Positions 25,578 through 33,172 of a stretch of 40,592 nucleotides of DNA are shown here, piece after piece; position 1 is the stretch's first letter, and the number at the start of each line of letters is the position of its first letter. This DNA is from Flavobacteriaceae bacterium. Its GTDB lineage: Bacteria; Bacteroidota; Bacteroidia; Flavobacteriales; Flavobacteriaceae. A program made the position numbers and the translations under genes. The stretch covers positions 1 through 40,592 of the forward strand of contig PKDQ01000005.1 of assembly GCA_002862645.1 (NCBI GenBank), written 5' to 3'. Under the pieces are notes generated by a model, which was not told the origin of the DNA, ran no database searches, and saw only the letters and a list, made by a program, of their open reading frames with translations.

Positions 25578-26339
25578 TTAACGTATCTGATTTATAAAAT
25601 CTTTAACACTAGCTACTCCATTTGATTCCATGTGTTTTATAAATGCAGAGCCAATGATGGCGCCTTTGCTATGGGCGGTAGCCGCTTGATAGGTTTCTGC
25701 GTTGCTGATTCCAAATCCAACCAAGAGTTTGGCGTTTAGTTTCATCGCACCAATGCGTTTAAAGTATTCGGCTTGAGTATCGCCAAAACTGTTTTGTGCA
25801 CCTGTTGTGGCTGCACTACTTACCATATATATAAAGCCTTCTGAAACCTCATCTATAAAGCGGATGCGTGCTTCTGGTGTTTGTGGTGTAATTAAAAACA
25901 TATTTAGCAGTCCGTACTGTTGAAACAAGGCTTGGTATTGCTCGTGATACACATTTACGGGAAGGTCTGGTATAATAAGTCCATCGATACCCACTTCTTT
26001 ACAGCGTTGACAAAAGCGTTCCACGCCATATTGCATCATAGGATTAAAATATCCCATGACTATTAGCGGTACACTGATATGATTTCGCACGTCCTTTAAC
26101 TGATCAAATAGCTTGTCGGTTGTCATGCCGTTTTTTAGAGCTTGTGTAGAGCTTTCTTGGATGGTTGGTCCGTCTGCCAAGGGGTCTGAAAAAGGCAATC
26201 CCAATTCAATCATGTCTACCCCCGAAGCTTCCAATTGTTTAAGAATACTAACAGTGTCTTCTAGTTGTGGAAAACCAGCTGTAAAATAAATGGAGAGTAG
26301 TTTGTGGTCTTGCTCGAGTAAGGATTGAATACGGTTCAT
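25578..26339 (-). CDS. trpA: Tryptophan synthase alpha subunit
   Basis: Cleaves indole-3-glycerol phosphate to indole and glyceraldehyde 3-phosphate, and passes indole to TrpB. The catalytic Glu and Asp are in MIELGLPFSDPLADGPTIQ. VGFGISNAE is the phosphate-binding loop. The start is the ATG at 26339; an upstream in-frame GTG (26354) would add five residues not typical of the family. It is separated from trpB by mscL and has its own predicted promoter. Confidence 0.96.
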   Translation of the reverse strand: MNRIQSLLEQDHKLLSIYFTAGFPQLEDTVSILKQLEASGVDMIELGLPFSDPLADGPTIQESSTQALKNGMTTDKLFDQLKDVRNHISVPLIVMGYFNPMMQYGVERFCQRCKEVGIDGLIIPDLPVNVYHEQYQALFQQYGLLNMFLITPQTPEARIRFIDEVSEGFIYMVSSAATTGAQNSFGDTQAEYFKRIGAMKLNAKLLVGFGISNAETYQAATAHSKGAIIGSAFIKHMESNGVASVKDFINQIR

Positions 26340-26368
26340 ATGATAAAAGCTCACTTTATTTCAAAGGC

Positions 26369-26399
26369 CAAAAATACTCTTTTACCAAAGGACAAGCAA
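26369..26399 (-). promoter_or_regulatory. Predicted internal promoter for trpA
   Basis: On the minus strand TTG (26399-26397), a 20-base spacer and TATTTTTG (26376-26369) fit the flavobacterial promoter consensus. It lies between mscL and trpA, so trpA could be made independently of the attenuator before trpE. Confidence 0.5.
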
Positions 26400-26413
26400 C
26401 AAAAAGTTCTGAC

Positions 26414-26857
26414 CTACTTTTTTTTAAGCAAGTCTCTGATTTCTGTCAGTAATACTTCTTCTTTAGATGGTTTAGCTGGAGGAGCTGGTGCTTTTTCTTC
26501 CTCCGTTTCAAACGTATATTTTATTTTGTTGTAGAATTTCACCACTAAAAAAATGGCGAAGGCTACAATAAGGAATGTGATAATGGTATTTATAAACATA
26601 CCATAGCGGATAGCAATTTCCGCAGTTCCTTCTGCTTCAACAGCAGGTTGAATTACATATTTGAATGAGACGAAGTCAACCCCTCCGATGAGTTTTCCCA
26701 CTAGTGGCATGATGATGTCATTGACCAATGATTTTACAATAGCGCCAAAATAAGTGCCCATAATAAGACCAACGGCTAACTCAATAACGTTGCCTTTACT
26801 AATAAATTTTTTAAACTCTTTCACGAATGGTGTATTTAACACCCATTTCAACTTCAT
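26414..26857 (-). CDS. mscL: Large-conductance mechanosensitive channel
   Basis: MscL opens under extreme membrane tension to release solutes after hypo-osmotic shock. The N-terminal amphipathic helix (FVKEFKKFISKGNVIELAVG), TM1 (LIMGTYFGAIVKSLVNDIIM), a periplasmic loop, TM2 (FINTIITFLIVAFAIFLVV) and a C-terminal bundle (KEEVLLTEIRDLLKKK) are all seen. About 147 residues. The ATG at 26857 is chosen over a TTG four codons upstream. It sits between trpB and trpA on the same strand. Confidence 0.95.
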   Translation of the reverse strand: MKLKWVLNTPFVKEFKKFISKGNVIELAVGLIMGTYFGAIVKSLVNDIIMPLVGKLIGGVDFVSFKYVIQPAVEAEGTAEIAIRYGMFINTIITFLIVAFAIFLVVKFYNKIKYTFETEEEKAPAPPAKPSKEEVLLTEIRDLLKKK

Positions 26858-26936
26858 AAAGCAAACCAATATTTAACGCACTTTTTTGAATAAGATTGGG
26901 GCATATTCAAATACTAAATTACGCTTTTTTTGAATG

Positions 26937-28121
26937 TTATAACTTAAAATAATCAATGTAGGTTTCAAGATCTTTGTCACCGCGACCAGAACAGTTGAAC
27001 AACAAGATGTCATTGGGTTCAAATTTTCGCTCATCCAAAATAGCAAAAGCATGAGCCGTTTCAATAGCTGGAATGATCCCTTCCATTTGCGATAGACTTA
27101 GTCCCCAATCCATGGCCTCTTGGTCTGGAATAGAAACAAATTCTGCGCGTTGGCTGCGATACAAATGTGCATGCATGGGACCAACACCTGGGTAATCTAG
27201 ACCAGCAGATATGGAATAGGGTTCGGTGATTTGTCCATCGGGGTTTTGCATGAGCAGGGTTTTACTGCCGTGAATGATGCCTTCTTTTCCCAATGCGGAG
27301 GTAGCGGCACTTTCGCCAGAATCAATCCCTTTTCCAGCAGCTTCCACAGCAATAATATTAACCCTTGGGTCATCTAAATAATGGTAATAGATGCCAGCGG
27401 CATTGCTTCCTCCACCTACACAGGCAATCACATGGTCTGGGTAATCACGTCCTTCAGCTTCTTGTAGTTGTGTTTTACATTCTTCACTAATAACGGATTG
27501 AAAACGCGCCACCATATCAGGGTAGGGGTGTGGTCCTACAACAGAACCAATAATGTAGTGTGTATCTACAGGGTTGTTGATCCAATCACGAATGGCCTCG
27601 TTTGTAGCATCTTTAAGCGTTTTGCTTCCCGATTGTGCCGGCCTAACCTCTGCGCCTAACATTTTCATACGGGCTACGTTGGGCGCCTGGCGTTTGATGT
27701 CCAATTCACCCATATATACAATACACGTGATACCCATAAGCGCACAAACAGTTGCTGTGGCAACCCCGTGTTGTCCTGCTCCTGTTTCAGCTATAATACG
27801 GGTTTTCCCCAGTCGTTTAGCCAATAGAATTTGTCCAATGGTGTTGTTGATCTTATGTGCACCTGTATGACACAAATCTTCTCGTTTTAAATAGATTTTT
27901 GTGTTGTATTTTTTAGATAAGCGTTCCGCAAAATACAATGGAGTAGGGCGACCTACATAATCTTTTAGTAGCTGATCAAATTCTTTTTTGAATTCGTCTT
28001 TGGAGGTAATTTCAAGGTAGTTCTGACGCAATTCCTCAACATTTGGGTAGAGCATTTCAGGGATGTAGGCACCACCAAAATCTCCGTAGTAGCCTTTTTC
28101 GTTTACATTGTATGTACTCAT
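26937..28121 (-). CDS. trpB: Tryptophan synthase beta subunit
   Basis: The PLP enzyme that condenses indole with serine to form tryptophan. The PLP lysine is in HTGAHKINN, the phosphate-binding loop is CVGGGSNAAG, and the COMM-domain ETGAGQHGVATA is intact. The 394 residues match the TrpB1 type, which forms the alpha2-beta2 complex with TrpA. Its ATG overlaps the trpF stop (ATGA). Confidence 0.97.
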   Translation of the reverse strand: MSTYNVNEKGYYGDFGGAYIPEMLYPNVEELRQNYLEITSKDEFKKEFDQLLKDYVGRPTPLYFAERLSKKYNTKIYLKREDLCHTGAHKINNTIGQILLAKRLGKTRIIAETGAGQHGVATATVCALMGITCIVYMGELDIKRQAPNVARMKMLGAEVRPAQSGSKTLKDATNEAIRDWINNPVDTHYIIGSVVGPHPYPDMVARFQSVISEECKTQLQEAEGRDYPDHVIACVGGGSNAAGIYYHYLDDPRVNIIAVEAAGKGIDSGESAATSALGKEGIIHGSKTLLMQNPDGQITEPYSISAGLDYPGVGPMHAHLYRSQRAEFVSIPDQEAMDWGLSLSQMEGIIPAIETAHAFAILDERKFEPNDILLFNCSGRGDKDLETYIDYFKL

Positions 28122-28726
28122 AGAACTAATTTTTCTTTAAACTTCTTCAATTGCTCAGCATCTTTAAGTGCTGGAGCAGTTTCAAACTTGCTGTTGATGT
28201 CAATCGCATAAACAGGCAAGTCTGTGTTGCGAAGTTCGTTAATCTTATCTATTTGTGCCAGCCCGATGCCGCCACTTATAAAAAAAGGCAAATCAAAGGG
28301 ATACTTTTCTAAAATAGACCAGTCAAAAGTAGTTCCATTTCCTCCTGGCATAGGTCCTTTGGTATCAAATAAGAAAAAATCACAGTAAGGTAGATAGTCA
28401 AGTAGTGTATCAAAATCAAAGGCCTCACCCACTCCAAATGCTTTGATAACCTGTACTTTTCCTTGTAGTTCTCGGCATAGTACGGGTGACTCATTGCCGT
28501 GCAATTGCACAGCACCGAGCTTGTGGTTTTCAATCGCATCTTCGATTTCCCCAACAGCGGCATCAATAAACACCCCTACTTTTGTAATGCCTGCAGGTAC
28601 ATATTGTGGTTTTGAACAATGCCTTTTTGAGCCAGCCCAAATGATAAATCCCATATAGTCAGGTTGTAGAACAGCTACTTCTAAAATATTGTTTGCTTCG
28701 CGCATGCCACATACTTTCCACTTCAT
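28118..28726 (-). CDS. trpF: Phosphoribosylanthranilate isomerase
   Basis: Carries out the Amadori rearrangement of PRA to CdRP, the third step to tryptophan. The N-terminal KVCGMREANNI holds the catalytic Cys, VGVFIDA and VQLHGNES follow, FLFDTKG carries the catalytic Asp, and FFISGGIGLAQI is the phosphate site. The 202 residues form a lone TIM barrel, not fused to trpC. It overlaps its neighbours by 4 bases on both sides. Confidence 0.95.
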   Translation of the reverse strand: MKWKVCGMREANNILEVAVLQPDYMGFIIWAGSKRHCSKPQYVPAGITKVGVFIDAAVGEIEDAIENHKLGAVQLHGNESPVLCRELQGKVQVIKAFGVGEAFDFDTLLDYLPYCDFFLFDTKGPMPGGNGTTFDWSILEKYPFDLPFFISGGIGLAQIDKINELRNTDLPVYAIDINSKFETAPALKDAEQLKKFKEKLVL

Positions 28727-29508
28727 GAGCTGTAGCTTTGAATGAAGTTTTGTGCAGCTTCACCAGGGTTGTCTTGAAGCATAAAATGTTCTCCCATCAA
28801 GAAGCCATCAAAACCAGCTTTGGAAAGTTTTTCAATAGCATCGTAAGACGAAATGCCACTTTCTGAAATTTTTACTTTATCGTTAGGTATGTGCTTGGCT
28901 AAGGCGAGACTGGTGTTTAGGTCTACAGAAAAGTCCTTGAGGTTTCGGTTGTTCACTCCAACTACATCAACATAGGTCAAGGGAGCTTGTGTAAGCTCTT
29001 CTAGGTTATGCACTTCCAGTAGCACGTCAAGTCCTATTTCTTTTGCGGTTTTGGTAAGTTGACCGGTTTCTTCTGCGTTAAGACAAGCCTTAATAAGCAA
29101 TATGGCATCAGCGCCATAGGCTTTGGCCTCGTGAATTTGATAGTCATCCACAATAAATTCTTTTCGCAATAGAGGCAGATTACACGCAGCACGCGCCAAG
29201 AGCAAATCTTCTAAAGAACCACCAAAATATTGTCCATTGGTAAGTACTGACATGGCTGCTACGCCAGCTTGCTCATATCCTGTTGCTACCGCTGCAGCTC
29301 GGGAGTGTAATTTTATTTGAGGCTTAGAGGGTGAACGGCGTTTATGTTCGGCCACAATTCCCATTGAGGTCTGCCTAATCCCTTCAGCAAAGGAGATTGT
29401 TTTCCTGTTGTAGTGGGGCATGGATTGTAACTGCGCTTGGGACATCATCTTCTTTTTCAGAGCGATTTCCTTGCGTTGATCTATGACGATTTGTGCTAAA
29501 ATGCTCAT
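28723..29508 (-). CDS. trpC: Indole-3-glycerol phosphate synthase
   Basis: Closes the indole ring by decarboxylating CdRP. Catalytic features: EHKRRSPSKPQI (Lys/Ser-Pro-Ser-Lys motif), LRKEFIVDDYQI, LLEVHNLEEL, GVNNRNLKDF and the phosphate loop SESGISS. The 261 residues are normal for a separate TrpC. It overlaps trpD and trpF by 4 bases each. Confidence 0.96.
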   Translation of the reverse strand: MSILAQIVIDQRKEIALKKKMMSQAQLQSMPHYNRKTISFAEGIRQTSMGIVAEHKRRSPSKPQIKLHSRAAAVATGYEQAGVAAMSVLTNGQYFGGSLEDLLLARAACNLPLLRKEFIVDDYQIHEAKAYGADAILLIKACLNAEETGQLTKTAKEIGLDVLLEVHNLEELTQAPLTYVDVVGVNNRNLKDFSVDLNTSLALAKHIPNDKVKISESGISSYDAIEKLSKAGFDGFLMGEHFMLQDNPGEAAQNFIQSYSS

Positions 29509-30500
29509 GCTTTACTCAGTGCTAATAATTTGGTTAAGGCACCTAATGCCTTTTTTGATTCAATAGATTCTTGTGCTTTGGCATAGCCCTCTGGTATCGA
29601 AATATCCAGTGCTGTTGCAATAGCGGTACCTGCGTTGGCACATACGACTTGTTTTTGTGCGGCCGTACCCTTGTCATGGAGGACTGCTGTAAAAATTGCT
29701 ACTGCATCTTCAACCGTATTTCCGCCACCAATAGCTTCAGGCGTAAGTGGCTTTAGCCCAAAGTCTGCAGGGCGAATAAGGCGTTCTCCAGCATTGGAAA
29801 TAATGTTGGTTGCACCCGTTAAGGAAATTTCATCATAGCCGTCAAGGGCATGCAACACACAAAACTGCTTATCTGATCGCTGAAATAAGTATCCGTATAA
29901 ACGCATTAGCGCCAAATTAAACACCCCTACGATTTGGCGCTTGGGCATACACGGATTGACCAAGGGCCCTAGCATATTAAAAAAGGTTTTGAGTTGGAGC
30001 GCACGCCTGATAGGTGCTACATGTTTCATCGCTGGATGAAACAAAGGCGCATGCAATACACAGATACCTGCTTGGGCTATACAGCGTTCCAAAAAGTCGG
30101 CATCGTTAGAAAAACGAATGCCCAAATATTCCATTACATTACTTGATCCACAAGAAGAGGAAACACCATAGTTACCGTGTTTTGCAACGTGGACGCCTGC
30201 ACCAGCTGTTACAAATGAAGCTAATGTGGAGATGTTAAAGGTGTCTTTGCCGTCCCCGCCGGTACCGCACAAGTCAATAGGGTTGTAAGCAGCCAGATCA
30301 ACGGCTATACAAAGTTCAAGTAGCGCATCTCTAAATCCGGCCAATTCGGCAACATCAATGCTACGCATCATGTATACGCTTAAAAAGGCGGTAACTTGAT
30401 AAGGGTCTGCTGCACCGCTGCCAATAAAGAGTAGCGCATCCTTGGCTTCTTGCTGCGATAGCTTTTCGTGTTGTGTAAGACGTGTTAGAATCTCTTTCAT
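29505..30500 (-). CDS. trpD: Anthranilate phosphoribosyltransferase
   Basis: Transfers the phosphoribosyl group from PRPP to anthranilate. The PRPP loop GTGGDGKDTFNIST, the KHGNYGVSSSCGSS segment and the metal-binding ALDGYDEISLTG are intact. It is a stand-alone 331-residue enzyme, not fused to trpG. It overlaps trpG and trpC by 4 bases each. Confidence 0.96.
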   Translation of the reverse strand: MKEILTRLTQHEKLSQQEAKDALLFIGSGAADPYQVTAFLSVYMMRSIDVAELAGFRDALLELCIAVDLAAYNPIDLCGTGGDGKDTFNISTLASFVTAGAGVHVAKHGNYGVSSSCGSSNVMEYLGIRFSNDADFLERCIAQAGICVLHAPLFHPAMKHVAPIRRALQLKTFFNMLGPLVNPCMPKRQIVGVFNLALMRLYGYLFQRSDKQFCVLHALDGYDEISLTGATNIISNAGERLIRPADFGLKPLTPEAIGGGNTVEDAVAIFTAVLHDKGTAAQKQVVCANAGTAIATALDISIPEGYAKAQESIESKKALGALTKLLALSKA

Positions 30501-31057
30501 AGTGCAACCCAGTTTTTTAATAGCTGTTTTCCATTGGGTGTAAGCACCGACTCAGGGTGAAACTGTACACCATAAATGGGGTGTGTTTTGTGCTTGAAGG
30601 CCATCACCTGACCATTTTCTTCCTCGGCCAACAAGATAAATCCGTCGGGCAGTGGTTTGTTGACTACCCAAGAGTGATAGCGCCCAACATCAAATGTACT
30701 TGGGAGTCCCGCAAACAGGGCATCGTCTTGCGTTATGGTCATTTTACTCGCTACCCCGTGAAATACGGTTGAAAGATTGGTTAATGAACCACCGAAAACC
30801 TCTGCAATTGCTTGATGCCCTAAGCAAACGCCAAGCATGGGAATACTAGTTGCGTATGCTTTAATAGTGGCTTTAAGTAGGCCAGCCTCATCTGGAATCC
30901 CAGGTCCCGGAGAAAGCACGATTTTATCATAACCAGCCACTTCTTCAAGTGTAAACTGATCGTTTCGTTTTACGGTAACGGTACAGCCTAGTTCCTCTAA
31001 GTAGTGCACCAAATTAAAGGTGAAAGAATCGTAATTATCAATGACTAAAATATTCAT
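30497..31057 (-). CDS. trpG: Anthranilate synthase component II (glutamine amidotransferase)
   Basis: Class I glutamine amidotransferase that supplies ammonia to TrpE. The DNYDSFTFNLVHYL start, the oxyanion and nucleophile motif GVCLGHQAIAE, and the catalytic His-Glu in VQFHPESVLT are present; LSPGPGIPDE is also typical. The protein could also serve aminodeoxychorismate synthase, as in some bacteria, but its place in the trp operon argues for tryptophan. It overlaps trpE by 4 bases. Confidence 0.95.
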   Translation of the reverse strand: MNILVIDNYDSFTFNLVHYLEELGCTVTVKRNDQFTLEEVAGYDKIVLSPGPGIPDEAGLLKATIKAYATSIPMLGVCLGHQAIAEVFGGSLTNLSTVFHGVASKMTITQDDALFAGLPSTFDVGRYHSWVVNKPLPDGFILLAEEENGQVMAFKHKTHPIYGVQFHPESVLTPNGKQLLKNWVAL

Positions 31058-32457
31058 GGAAATTGTTTTTCTGCTTTGTCCATGGCGGTGTTAAGCGCAC
31101 GTAATTTATTGTAAACTTCTTGCAATTCGCTTTTGGGGTCTGATTTTGAAACAACACCTGCGCCTGCATGGTAGTGCAGTACATTATTTTTACTCAAAAA
31201 GGATCTGATGATGATGGCGTGGTTATAGTTGCCTTTGAAATCCAAAAATCCAATAGCACCTCCGTAGAAGGAGCGGTCTGTGGTTTCATAGGATTCGATA
31301 AGTTGCATAGCGCGGTGTTTGGGCGCACCACTTAATGTTCCAGCAGGAAAGGTGTCTGCTACAATTTGCATGGTAGCCGTTTCCTTCTTTTTTCGCCCTG
31401 TGACCTTAGATACTAAGTGGATAACGTGCGAGTAAAATTGCACTTCTCTGTCTTTTTCAACGGTCACTTCCTGTCCATGACGGCTCAAATCGTTTCTTGC
31501 CAAATCTACCAGCATCATGTGTTCGGCATTTTCTTTCAAGTCTTTTGCCAATTCTTTTGCTCTAGCTTCGTCCTGTACATCATTTCCCGTTCGGATAAAT
31601 GTACCTGCTATTGGGTGAATTTCCGCTACACCATCTTGTACCACCAGTTGTGCTTCTGGCGAACTGCCAAAGATTTTAAAACCTCCAAAGTCAAAATAGA
31701 AAATATATGGCGATGGATTTATAGAGCGCAGTACGCGATACAAACTGAAGTCATCTCCGCTGTAGGCTTGTGAAAAGCGACGGGAAAGTACAATTTGAAA
31801 AACGTCGCCACGCATGCAATGCTTTATGCCTTTTTTGACCAAGTCTACAAATGCTTCATCTCGCATATTAGACGATGCTTCCCCTTCTTTTTTAAATGAA
31901 TACGAATCACGTGCAGGAGCCTTGAGTAATTGGACAACCTCAGCTAGGTTGCTTTCGCTTTGATAACAATGGGCAAAAAGCTTGGCTTGGTTGTTAAAAA
32001 CATTGATTGCGATAATATTTTGATAAAGTGCATAATATATCTCGGGTATATCTGCATCTCCTCCTTTTTTTGTTAGCTCAATATCTTCAAAATACTGTAC
32101 GGCCTCGTAAGATGTGTAGCCAAACAAGCCATTGCTTAAAAAGCGATTTTCAAGTTCGTCTGTATCAAATTGAGCGGCAAACGCCTCAAGCTTATCAACT
32201 ACCGAAATGTTTGGGGTAACAATTGTTTGGGAAGTAGTGCTGTCTGGAAAGCGCTCTGTTATGTTTTGGTTGCGCACCTTAAAAGAGGCAATGGGGTTAA
32301 AGCATATGTAGGCCACACTGTTGTCATTGGCACCATAGTCAGAACTTTCGAGCAACACACTTTCTGGGTATGCGTCTCTAATTTTAAGATACATATTGAC
32401 CGGTGTCATGGTATCGGTCAAGAGCTCACAAGTATCAGTTTGTAGTTTAAACTTCAT
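31054..32457 (-). CDS. trpE: Anthranilate synthase component I
   Basis: Makes anthranilate from chorismate and ammonia, the first committed step. The chorismate-binding core shows QIVLSRRFSQAY, LVDLARNDLSRHG, the TFPAGTLSGAPKHRAM signature and YHAGAGVVSKSDP. The N-terminal LLESSD element is the expected tryptophan feedback site. It has 467 residues. The ATG follows the attenuator's T-run by only a few bases, so the gene is under leader-peptide control. Confidence 0.97.
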   Translation of the reverse strand: MKFKLQTDTCELLTDTMTPVNMYLKIRDAYPESVLLESSDYGANDNSVAYICFNPIASFKVRNQNITERFPDSTTSQTIVTPNISVVDKLEAFAAQFDTDELENRFLSNGLFGYTSYEAVQYFEDIELTKKGGDADIPEIYYALYQNIIAINVFNNQAKLFAHCYQSESNLAEVVQLLKAPARDSYSFKKEGEASSNMRDEAFVDLVKKGIKHCMRGDVFQIVLSRRFSQAYSGDDFSLYRVLRSINPSPYIFYFDFGGFKIFGSSPEAQLVVQDGVAEIHPIAGTFIRTGNDVQDEARAKELAKDLKENAEHMMLVDLARNDLSRHGQEVTVEKDREVQFYSHVIHLVSKVTGRKKKETATMQIVADTFPAGTLSGAPKHRAMQLIESYETTDRSFYGGAIGFLDFKGNYNHAIIIRSFLSKNNVLHYHAGAGVVSKSDPKSELQEVYNKLRALNTAMDKAEKQFP

Positions 32458-32462
32458 TAATT

Positions 32463-32500
32463 AAAAATAAAAAAAGGCCTGTCATTATATGACAAGCCTT
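32463..32500 (-). terminator. trp attenuator: intrinsic terminator hairpin (region 3:4)
   Basis: Minus strand: AAGGCTTGTCAT (32500-32489), a three-base ATA loop, and ATGACAGGCCTT (32485-32474) form a 12-bp stem with a single T.G wobble, followed by a T-rich run down to about 32463. The trpE ATG is only 6 bases further on. Read-through depends on the alternative pairing described under the leader. Confidence 0.9.
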
Positions 32501-32556
32501 TTAATTTTATATAATACGCTTATCATCTCCAATTAGGAGTTCCACCAAAGCGTATT
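32484..32556 (-). promoter_or_regulatory. trp attenuator: alternative pairings (regions 1:2 and 2:3)
   Basis: Region 1, AATACGCTT (32556-32548), lies in the leader peptide just before the Trp codons and pairs perfectly with region 2, AAGCGTATT (32521-32513). Region 2 can instead pair through ATTATAT (32515-32509) with ATATAAT (32490-32484) in the loop and stem of the terminator. A ribosome stalled at the Trp codons would cover region 1 and favour 2:3, which breaks the terminator. Confidence 0.8.
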
Positions 32557-32574
32557 AAAAATGCGTTTTTTCAT
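32533..32574 (-). CDS. trpL: trp operon leader peptide
   Basis: A 13-codon reading frame encoding MKKRIFNTLWWNS and a TAA stop. Its two adjacent TGG codons are at 32547-32542, immediately after region 1 of the RNA structure. The ATG is 5 bases downstream of a TATATTTG box, so the transcript may start at or near the codon. This is the sensor of a classical ribosome-mediated attenuator: shortage of charged tRNA-Trp stalls the ribosome and allows trpE transcription. The peptide itself is not expected to have a function. Confidence 0.85.
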   Translation of the reverse strand: MKKRIFNTLWWNS

Positions 32575-32579
32575 CTGCC

Positions 32580-32611
32580 CAAATATATACAATTCAGCGA
32601 TAAAAAAACAA
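32580..32611 (-). promoter_or_regulatory. Predicted trp operon promoter
   Basis: On the minus strand TTG (32611-32609), a 21-base spacer and TATATTTG (32587-32580) match the Bacteroidota consensus TTG-N17-23-TAnnTTTG. It lies between the YceI gene end and trpL. Confidence 0.7.
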
Positions 32612-32614
32612 GGG

Positions 32615-33172
32615 CTAGTAGGTAAAGCTCACACGAAGCTTCAATTCGTCGTTAATAAGCTTGTCCCCTAGGTTTTCAAAAAAGGACCCAGATCTAAATT
32701 TTACATTGTATTTCGATCGATCAATCTCAAAGTCAGCTGTGGCTGTGTTGTTGTCTATTTTGAGTTCAAACGATTCTGAATGGGTAATGCCTCGTATGGA
32801 AAAATCACCTGTAATTTGGTAACCCTCGTCAGAGGGAGTAACAGAAGTAAAAACTAGTGTGGCTTCAGGATGCTCTGCAACCCCGAAAAAATCATCTGAT
32901 TCAAGGTGGCCAACTAGCCTTGCACCATATTTTTCAGATAAATCTGTACACACGATAGAGTTCATATCAACAGTGAAGTTACCACCCCTAAGCGAATCAG
33001 CTTTAAATTTTAGCGCTCCTGTACTAATGTTAATGGTTCCAACATGCGATTCGGTTGTGATTTTCGATCCCTCCCAATTGATGACTCCATTAGTAATAGC
33101 TTTTGTTTGTGCATTTAATCCAAAGTTTAAAAAAGTAATTGCCAAAAAAGCTGTTATTGTTCTTGTATTCAT
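32615..33172 (-). CDS. YceI family secreted protein
   Basis: A 185-residue lipocalin-like protein with a signal peptide (MNTRTITAFLAITFLNFGLNAQ). YceI features are ESHVGTINISTGALKF, a region with FTVDMNSIVCTDL, HLESDDFFGVAEHPEATLVF, and GDFSIRGITHSESFEL. YceI proteins bind isoprenoid-like ligands in the periplasm; the physiological role is unclear. It starts 15 bases after the MarR gene, so the regulator and this gene form an operon. Confidence 0.92.
   Translation of the reverse strand: MNTRTITAFLAITFLNFGLNAQTKAITNGVINWEGSKITTESHVGTINISTGALKFKADSLRGGNFTVDMNSIVCTDLSEKYGARLVGHLESDDFFGVAEHPEATLVFTSVTPSDEGYQITGDFSIRGITHSESFELKIDNNTATADFEIDRSKYNVKFRSGSFFENLGDKLINDELKLRVSFTY

Follow-up and report, generated by a model that had tools for sequence, protein, structure and literature searches.

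A Compact, Probably Leaderless Relative of the Bacteroid-trp RNA, Likely Attenuating the trp Operon of a Flavobacteriaceae Bacterium

Introduction

The trp attenuator of Escherichia coli (trpL) shows pairings in the order 1:2, 2:3 and 3:4, two adjacent Trp codons beside region 1 and an antiterminator that uses the 5' side of the terminator. Ribosome-mediated trp attenuation of this kind is already described for the phylum Bacteroidota, as the Bacteroid-trp RNA (Rfam RF01692; Weinberg et al. 2010, PMC2864571). This element is reported to be conserved before the trp operon of Flavobacterium psychrophilum (PMC6414381), and strong clues for leader-peptide attenuation before amino-acid operons are reported for the same species (PMC9723704).

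Messenger RNAs of Bacteroidota are reported to be without Shine-Dalgarno sequences (PMC6847099), so that the early ribosome loading on which an attenuator depends poses a genuine problem. A simple solution would be a leader ORF placed at the extreme 5' end of the RNA. Trp leader RNAs that start at or near the AUG of the leader ORF are reported, with 5' ends from data, for Sinorhizobium meliloti (PMC7298713) and Streptomyces lividans (PMC8079986).

For the Bacteroid-trp family, neither an antiterminator nor a leaderless leader was seen described in the literature searched, mainly the main texts of freely accessible papers. The locus described here has both a probably leaderless leader and a shifted antiterminator.

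Materials and Methods

The window is the whole stretch of DNA that was analysed, 40,592 nucleotides of contig PKDQ01000005.1 of a small marine Flavobacteriaceae bacterium. The best 80 of 307 relatives in a TrpE scan were kept, corresponding to 79 distinct loci; 77 of these hold the 5' end of trpE, and the two without it (L038 and L050) were left out. The near loci (n = 18) are 17 close trpE loci plus the window, and set A contains the 60 other trpE loci. Set B consists of 60 of the 108 RF01692 matches from 149 genomes of the family, taken best-scoring in order, all above the RF01692 cut-off and with the contig-edge match G082 skipped. Sets A and B overlap: L032 and L090 represent a single locus, and further pairs may coincide. 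Upstream distances were counted from the start of the tblastn match, which at some loci lies a few codons inside trpE (12 in L063).

A covariance model, R1, was built from the near loci. In the masked folds the ribosome footprint was masked and pairing was computed in the unfinished transcript. A first masking run, in which only the terminator 5' arm was scored, was replaced, being unsuited to members that pair with the loop plus 3' arm. A second score covered the terminator 5' arm, the loop and the first 3 nt of the 3' arm, with downstream footprints of 9, 12 and 15 nt.

Results and Discussion

Anatomy and Conservation of the Element

The element lies on the minus strand, directly before trpE. 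A complete trp attenuator had been proposed at this place in an earlier note, and its elements were all found, on the minus strand:

25578..31057, minus strand: trpG, trpD, trpC, trpF, trpB, mscL and trpA, in that order (NCBIfam matches and gene order)
31054..32457, minus strand: trpE, first gene of the regulated operon (TIGR00564, E 2e-119, below its curated cut-off)
32463..32475, minus strand: U-rich tract (7 U, A, 5 U), the first four U also paired in the terminator stem
32472..32485, minus strand: region 4, terminator 3' arm
32489..32502, minus strand: region 3, terminator 5' arm, of which GCTTGTCAT (32497-32489) pairs with the antiterminator strand
32513..32521, minus strand: region 2, partner of region 1 (AAGCGTATT)
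32518..32526, minus strand: region 2, antiterminator strand (ATGATAAGC), located 9-17 nt beyond the leader stop codon's first base
32533..32574, minus strand: leader ORF MKKRIFNTLWWNS plus TAA, 13 codons, with ATG at 32574 and TAA at 32535-32533
32542..32547, minus strand: adjacent Trp codons TGG TGG, codons 10 and 11 of the leader ORF
32548..32556, minus strand: region 1 (AATACGCTT), 9-bp pairing with 32513-32521
32580..32587, minus strand: Bacteroidota -7 promoter box TATATTTG, with 5 nt between it and the leader ATG
32615-33172, minus strand: yceI-like gene, upstream of the leader and on its strand

Thus the operon reads trpE-trpG-trpD-trpC-trpF-trpB-mscL-trpA. In NCBIfam, a match above the curated cut-off was obtained for each of trpG, trpD, trpC, trpB, mscL and trpA, and trpE and trpF matched only below it. 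The mscL gene, for a large-conductance mechanosensitive channel, is located between trpB and trpA (window positions 26414-26869, minus strand).

The 13-codon leader with adjacent Trp codons was confirmed as proposed, and these codons directly follow region 1. The 1:2 pairing of AATACGCTT with AAGCGTATT, described earlier as a perfect 9-bp pairing, indeed has nine Watson-Crick pairs out of nine. Two other stems are present as claimed, with corrected lengths: the 2:3 pairing (ATGATAAGC with GCTTGTCAT) has 9 bp including one G-U instead of 7 bp, and the terminator stem with its T-run (32502-32472) has 14 bp including one G-U and a 3-nt loop instead of 12 bp. The pairings 1:2, 2:3 and 3:4 are mutually exclusive, with a terminator and with the Trp codons beside region 1, as in the general class of such attenuators.

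An RNA fold and an alignment of related genomes, both suggested in the earlier note as checks, favoured the attenuator. The fold has -34.7 kcal/mol versus -17.7 (sd 2.8) in 200 shuffles (z = -6.2), none of which was as stable. The ATG, the frame, TGGTGG and the terminator are kept in 18/18 near loci, the leader ORF having 13 codons in 16 of them and 14 in two. Over these loci the 1:2 and 3:4 stems are 95.2% paired, versus at most 57.1% in slid controls, with eight double-change cells and 0/500 shuffles as high; one 1:2 pair is unpaired in six of the 18. The 2:3 pairing is 91.4% paired versus at most 46.9% slid. Its covariation is weak in the window's clade: the percentage paired is matched by 88/500 shuffles, and the covariation score is 0.137, with one slid control higher at 0.145. 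The first 2:3 pair is unpaired in 10/18 loci, and one U-A pair is C-G in 4/18 and G-U in 1/18.

More widely, a short ORF with adjacent Trp codons was found in 46/60 set A loci, a criterion that misses separated Trp codons (WYW in L045 and WQW in L072, counted among the 14/60 without a leader), and all 46 have a terminator. In set B the WW leader was present in 59/60, 58 of the 59 with a terminator. The terminator arms, GGCTTGTC and GACAAGCC, are near-invariant in sequence in alignments A1 and A2, beyond what pairing alone needs, and this invariance extends to the window's clade, though the loop and the antiterminator changed there. Locus L078 carries two successive short WWW ORFs (MIITNVNTWWWNSCN and MDMIENRLNRNWWWTDQMI), 237 and 128 nt before trpE, which are perhaps two attenuators in series.

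Relationship to Bacteroid-trp and Other Leaders

The window was matched by RF01692 with 38.0 bits and an E value of 0.0043 in a 301-nt search, below the gathering cut-off of 49 bits, and no RF01692 match at E <= 0.001 was found in its own genome. The alignment is full-length (1-131) and at the same genomic place before trpE. Within the family, 108/149 genomes have RF01692 matches at E <= 0.001, and 94/149 above the cut-off. The R1 model matched 17/17 genomes of the window's genus, its own included, at 124-146 bits; the next best match in the family, in G067, had 78 bits, and the leader of G067 is identical to that of L016, probably from the same genome. When the own genome is set aside, 15 of the best 20 R1 hits overlap the RF01692 match of the respective genome, and the other five (G067, G105, G099, G020 and G064) are in genomes without an RF01692 match at E <= 0.001. 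Because of the 38-bit match, sub-cut-off as it is, and the places shared between R1 and RF01692, the window element is, as judged from sequence, a diverged homologue of Bacteroid-trp.

Both elements lie before trp genes and have a leader ORF with at least two Trp codons (MKKRIFNTLWWNS in the window), an enclosing hairpin of the 1:2 type and the GGCTTGTC terminator arm, and the model of each finds loci of the other. They differ in that the window has two Trp codons against three in most members seen, all 59 set B leaders among them, in the spacing of leaderless type, constant at 5 in the window's clade, and in that this clade is without the TCGTGA:TCACGA pairing (see below) and employs the 5' arm of the terminator in its place. 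It is with this 5' arm, GGCUUGUC, that the RF01692 model ends; the present analysis adds parts absent from that model, namely the terminator loop, the 3' arm and a candidate antiterminator.

With the enterobacterial attenuator the window shares the order of regions, two adjacent Trp codons beside region 1 and an antiterminator on the 5' side of the terminator. In contrast, the enterobacterial Trp_leader of Rfam is not among its 26 Rfam matches at E <= 10, the leader is probably leaderless and no Shine-Dalgarno site is assumed. The remaining Rfam matches at E <= 10 (Phe_leader, GibS, trpB, GlmZ and others) were rejected, lying far below their cut-offs, and are taken as shared leader-terminator make-up or chance.

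Promoter and Putative Leaderless Start

A promoter before the leader had also been claimed in the earlier note, which considered that the leader might be leaderless. The promoter was identified as the Bacteroidota -7 box TATATTTG at 32587-32580, separated by 27 nt from the end of the yceI-like gene (32615). A sigma-70 promoter was rejected, since the sigma-70 consensus scan listed nothing at this place and the Bacteroidota box fits instead. For F. johnsoniae, many transcription starts are reported 4 or 5 nt after the -7 element (PMC6847099); in the window, transcription would then start at 32575 or 32574, that is, 0-1 nt before the leader AUG.

The leaderless proposal was strengthened by the relatives. 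Exactly 5 nt separate the TAnnTTTG box from the leader ATG in 18/18 near loci, and for this reason the trp leader RNA of the window's clade is considered probably leaderless. It resembles the S. meliloti and S. lividans leaders in beginning at or near the AUG of the Trp leader ORF; unlike in those species, which belong to other phyla, the start is deduced here from the promoter box. Leaderless mRNAs are reported as 5.5% in F. psychrophilum (PMC9723704). In Bacteroides thetaiotaomicron, about 3.7% of 5' UTRs are reported to be shorter than 10 nt.

In set A the box-to-ATG spacing is 4-11 nt in 28/46 loci and 15 or 18 in three, and no consensus box was found in the other 15. For set B the spacing is 4-12 in 21/59, 14-22 in 37 and 38 in one; this set may carry a bias, the model used to draw it covering the promoter region, and the near loci and set A were drawn by TrpE. 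Where several in-frame ATGs occurred, the one nearest a box was chosen, which favours short spacings in these counts. Sixteen further stretches were picked from R1 hits: a WW leader is present in 13, with a spacing of 4 or 5 in 10 of them. As a rough control, a box was found 4-11 nt before the first ATG in 11/518 ORFs of at least 150 codons from the 79 loci, many of them inner genes of operons and with relatives counted repeatedly. Short 5' UTRs thus appear to be common for trp leaders of the near loci and of sets A and B, and a strictly leaderless spacing is fixed in the window's clade and frequent in some other groups.

In the window's own genome, the pattern TAHHTTTG-N5-ATG occurs at 32 places versus 8 for the reversed pattern, and in 22 of the 30 loci returned it starts a frame of at least 150 codons, suggesting that leaderless genes are a general class in this small genome.

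Position of the Candidate Antiterminator

In typical members, a TCGTGA-like strand that lies downstream of the Trp codons, close to the leader stop codon, is the complement of TCACGA, which spans the terminator loop and the beginning of the 3' arm; the resulting helix starts 16-19 nt downstream of the Trp codons in the 57 set B loci of this class. Over an alignment of 79 loci (58 from set B and 21 from set A), it is 90.7% paired versus at most 49.9% slid, with four double-change cells and 1/500 shuffles as high; its covariation score is 0.036, a slid control (+3) being higher at 0.044, and its outermost pair fails in 44/77 rows. Four Saprospiraceae loci outside this alignment (L053, L056, L057 and L063) have a helix with other letters. 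The pairing, a feature found in typical members and not in the Rfam model, is absent from the window. In the window's clade, a strand that is ATGATAAGC or CGATAGGC-like pairs with the terminator 5' arm.

Complementarity to the loop plus 3' arm, with no more than 5/100 shuffles as good, was found in 49/58 set B loci, 19/46 set A loci and 0/18 near loci; the corresponding values for the 5' arm plus loop are 3/58, 14/46 and 11/18. The latter pairing occurs in 11 set A loci and one set B locus, and ten loci belong to neither class. Duplexes with internal loops extend on average over 5.7 nt of the 5' arm, 4.5 of the loop and 2.4 of the 3' arm in the 58 set B loci, and over 10.0, 2.1 and 0.1 nt, respectively, in the 18 near loci. 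A clean switch of wiring was therefore rejected: in typical members, too, some of the 5' arm is paired, and the change is a shift, a matter of degree.

In the TrpE tree, calculated by a quick method with SH-aLRT support only, the 18 near loci form one clade (100) within a 40-row, mostly Flavobacteriaceae group (97). Since 20 of the other 22 rows of this group are of the loop-plus-3'-arm type (the remaining two are L033, unclear, and L036, with no leader in only 149 nt of upstream sequence), the shift most probably occurred on the branch leading to the window's clade. The class label of a row denotes whichever contiguous helix is the stronger at 12-22 nt from the Trp codons and is not a significance test. 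Three small-genome loci with two Trp codons (L188, L189 and L196) keep TCGTGA:TCACGA. In L190, which looks intermediate between the two wirings, GCGATGA follows the Trp codons and is the complement of TCATCGC, a sequence that runs from the end of the 5' arm into the loop. The data suggest that a pairing has changed its place within one bacterial family, which constitutes a natural experiment on the evolution of a switch.

Ribosome-Masked Folds and Proposed Mechanism

With the A site at the last Trp codon, mean antiterminator pairing in the near loci was 0.99; at the stop codon it was 0.53, and it was 0.78 without ribosome. Pairing at Trp exceeded that at the stop codon by more than 0.1 in 18/18 near loci and that without ribosome in 10/18. 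For the 57 set B loci of the loop-plus-3'-arm type the three values were 0.96, 0.02 and 0.29, with Trp above stop in 57/57 and above no ribosome in 48/57; set A gave 0.75, 0.00 and 0.28 in 31 loci and 0.75, 0.00 and 0.18 in 15 loci. Low values at the stop codon are in part a consequence of the mask in those loci whose antiterminator strand overlaps the footprint there. With the second score, at 9, 12 and 15 nt respectively, Trp exceeded stop in 13, 17 and 18 of the 18 near loci and in 47, 46 and 47 of 58 set B loci, and exceeded no ribosome in 8, 7 and 4 of 18 and in 44, 44 and 44 of 58. In controls with the stretch from the Trp codons to the terminator shuffled, Trp was above stop in 38% of the 90 of near type and in 18% of the 290 of set B type. 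The replaced run on the 5' arm alone had given Trp above stop by more than 0.1 in 15/18 near, 27/46 set A and 32/58 set B loci, and the reverse order in 0, 6 and 5.

The masked folds fit the proposal of ribosome-mediated attenuation in that Trp is separated from stop in all near loci, and they fit it less well in two other respects: Trp is distinguished from the ribosome-free state in only 10/18, and the full-length minimum fold retains the terminator with the ribosome masked at Trp in each of eight loci, the window included. It follows from these full-length folds that equilibrium alone gives no antitermination and that 2:3 must form before region 4 is made. Without ribosome, protection by 1:2 looks weaker in the window's clade than in typical members.

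Given the trp-operon context, the conserved Trp codons and reading frame of the leader, the arrangement of the regions and the masked folds, we consider the element, with a probability of about 0.85, to be a ribosome-mediated transcription attenuator of the trp operon and a compact, probably leaderless relative of Bacteroid-trp. The transcription start, ribosome loading, termination, timing and response to tRNA-Trp we infer as follows. RNA polymerase would start at the leader AUG or 1 nt before it, and a ribosome would load at the 5' end of the leader RNA. When charged tRNA-Trp is scarce, the ribosome would stall on UGG-UGG and cover region 1; region 2 (AUGAUAAGC) would stay accessible and could bind the terminator 5' arm (GCUUGUCAU) ahead of the synthesis of region 4. 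With 2:3 paired, transcription would continue into trpE. When tryptophan is plentiful, the ribosome would reach the stop codon, its leading edge covering the start of region 2, and on its release 1:2 could form. With either outcome, transcription would end at the 14-bp terminator and its U tract.

A wider account is put forward tentatively, as possible at somewhat less than even odds: one design would be shared across Bacteroidota, in which a short strand closely following the Trp codons holds the terminator in its loop region, taking in the loop and 3' arm in most Flavobacteriaceae seen and the loop and 5' arm in some other Bacteroidia. The window's genus would have moved onto the 5' arm, with a strictly leaderless start and two Trp codons, and the switch would be set mainly by the ribosome, loaded on the 5'-terminal AUG, reaching the stop codon.

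It is also conceivable, if rather unlikely, that the attenuator is the same and its off state in the window's genus depends only on the ribosome reaching the stop codon, 1:2 being little protective and an untranslated leader reading through instead of undergoing super-attenuation. The ribosome-free unfinished transcript does favour 2:3 in the near loci and the stop-codon ribosome lowers it (0.78 to 0.53), the ribosome-free value in set B being 0.29, with a similar outcome for the second score at its three footprint sizes. However, the 1:2 hairpin has -15.4 kcal/mol in the window and is made before region 3, and the minimum fold of the full-length RNA is 1:2 plus 3:4.

The attenuator reading also has to be set against a hairpin that blocks mainly the translation of trpE and not transcription. 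The trpE ATG lies only 14 nt after the stem in the window (32471-32458), in favour of such a block, but the stem is followed by a U tract and the leader lies up to 310 nt before trpE in other members, too far for direct masking, which makes this alternative very improbable. That the hairpin merely terminates the upstream yceI-like gene, which is on the same minus strand, with the short ORF arising by chance, is scarcely credible in view of the leader frame kept in all 18 near loci and of the WW leaders in 46/60 other trpE loci and 59/60 RF01692 loci.

Other Leaders in the Same Genome

A crude filter found no convincing leader at the ilvD and homoserine-dehydrogenase loci of the window's own genome. 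A putative His attenuator was observed there before hisG (G000:C6; L173, reverse complement, from position 1225). Its putative leader ORF, MNTKHVFHHNNIPFQTC, begins 7 nt after a near-consensus box, GATATTTG, and a terminator, AACCCGTTTG-N-CAAACGGGTTTTTT, lies downstream. The tail of this leader, CAAACG, is complementary to CGTTTG of the terminator 5' arm.
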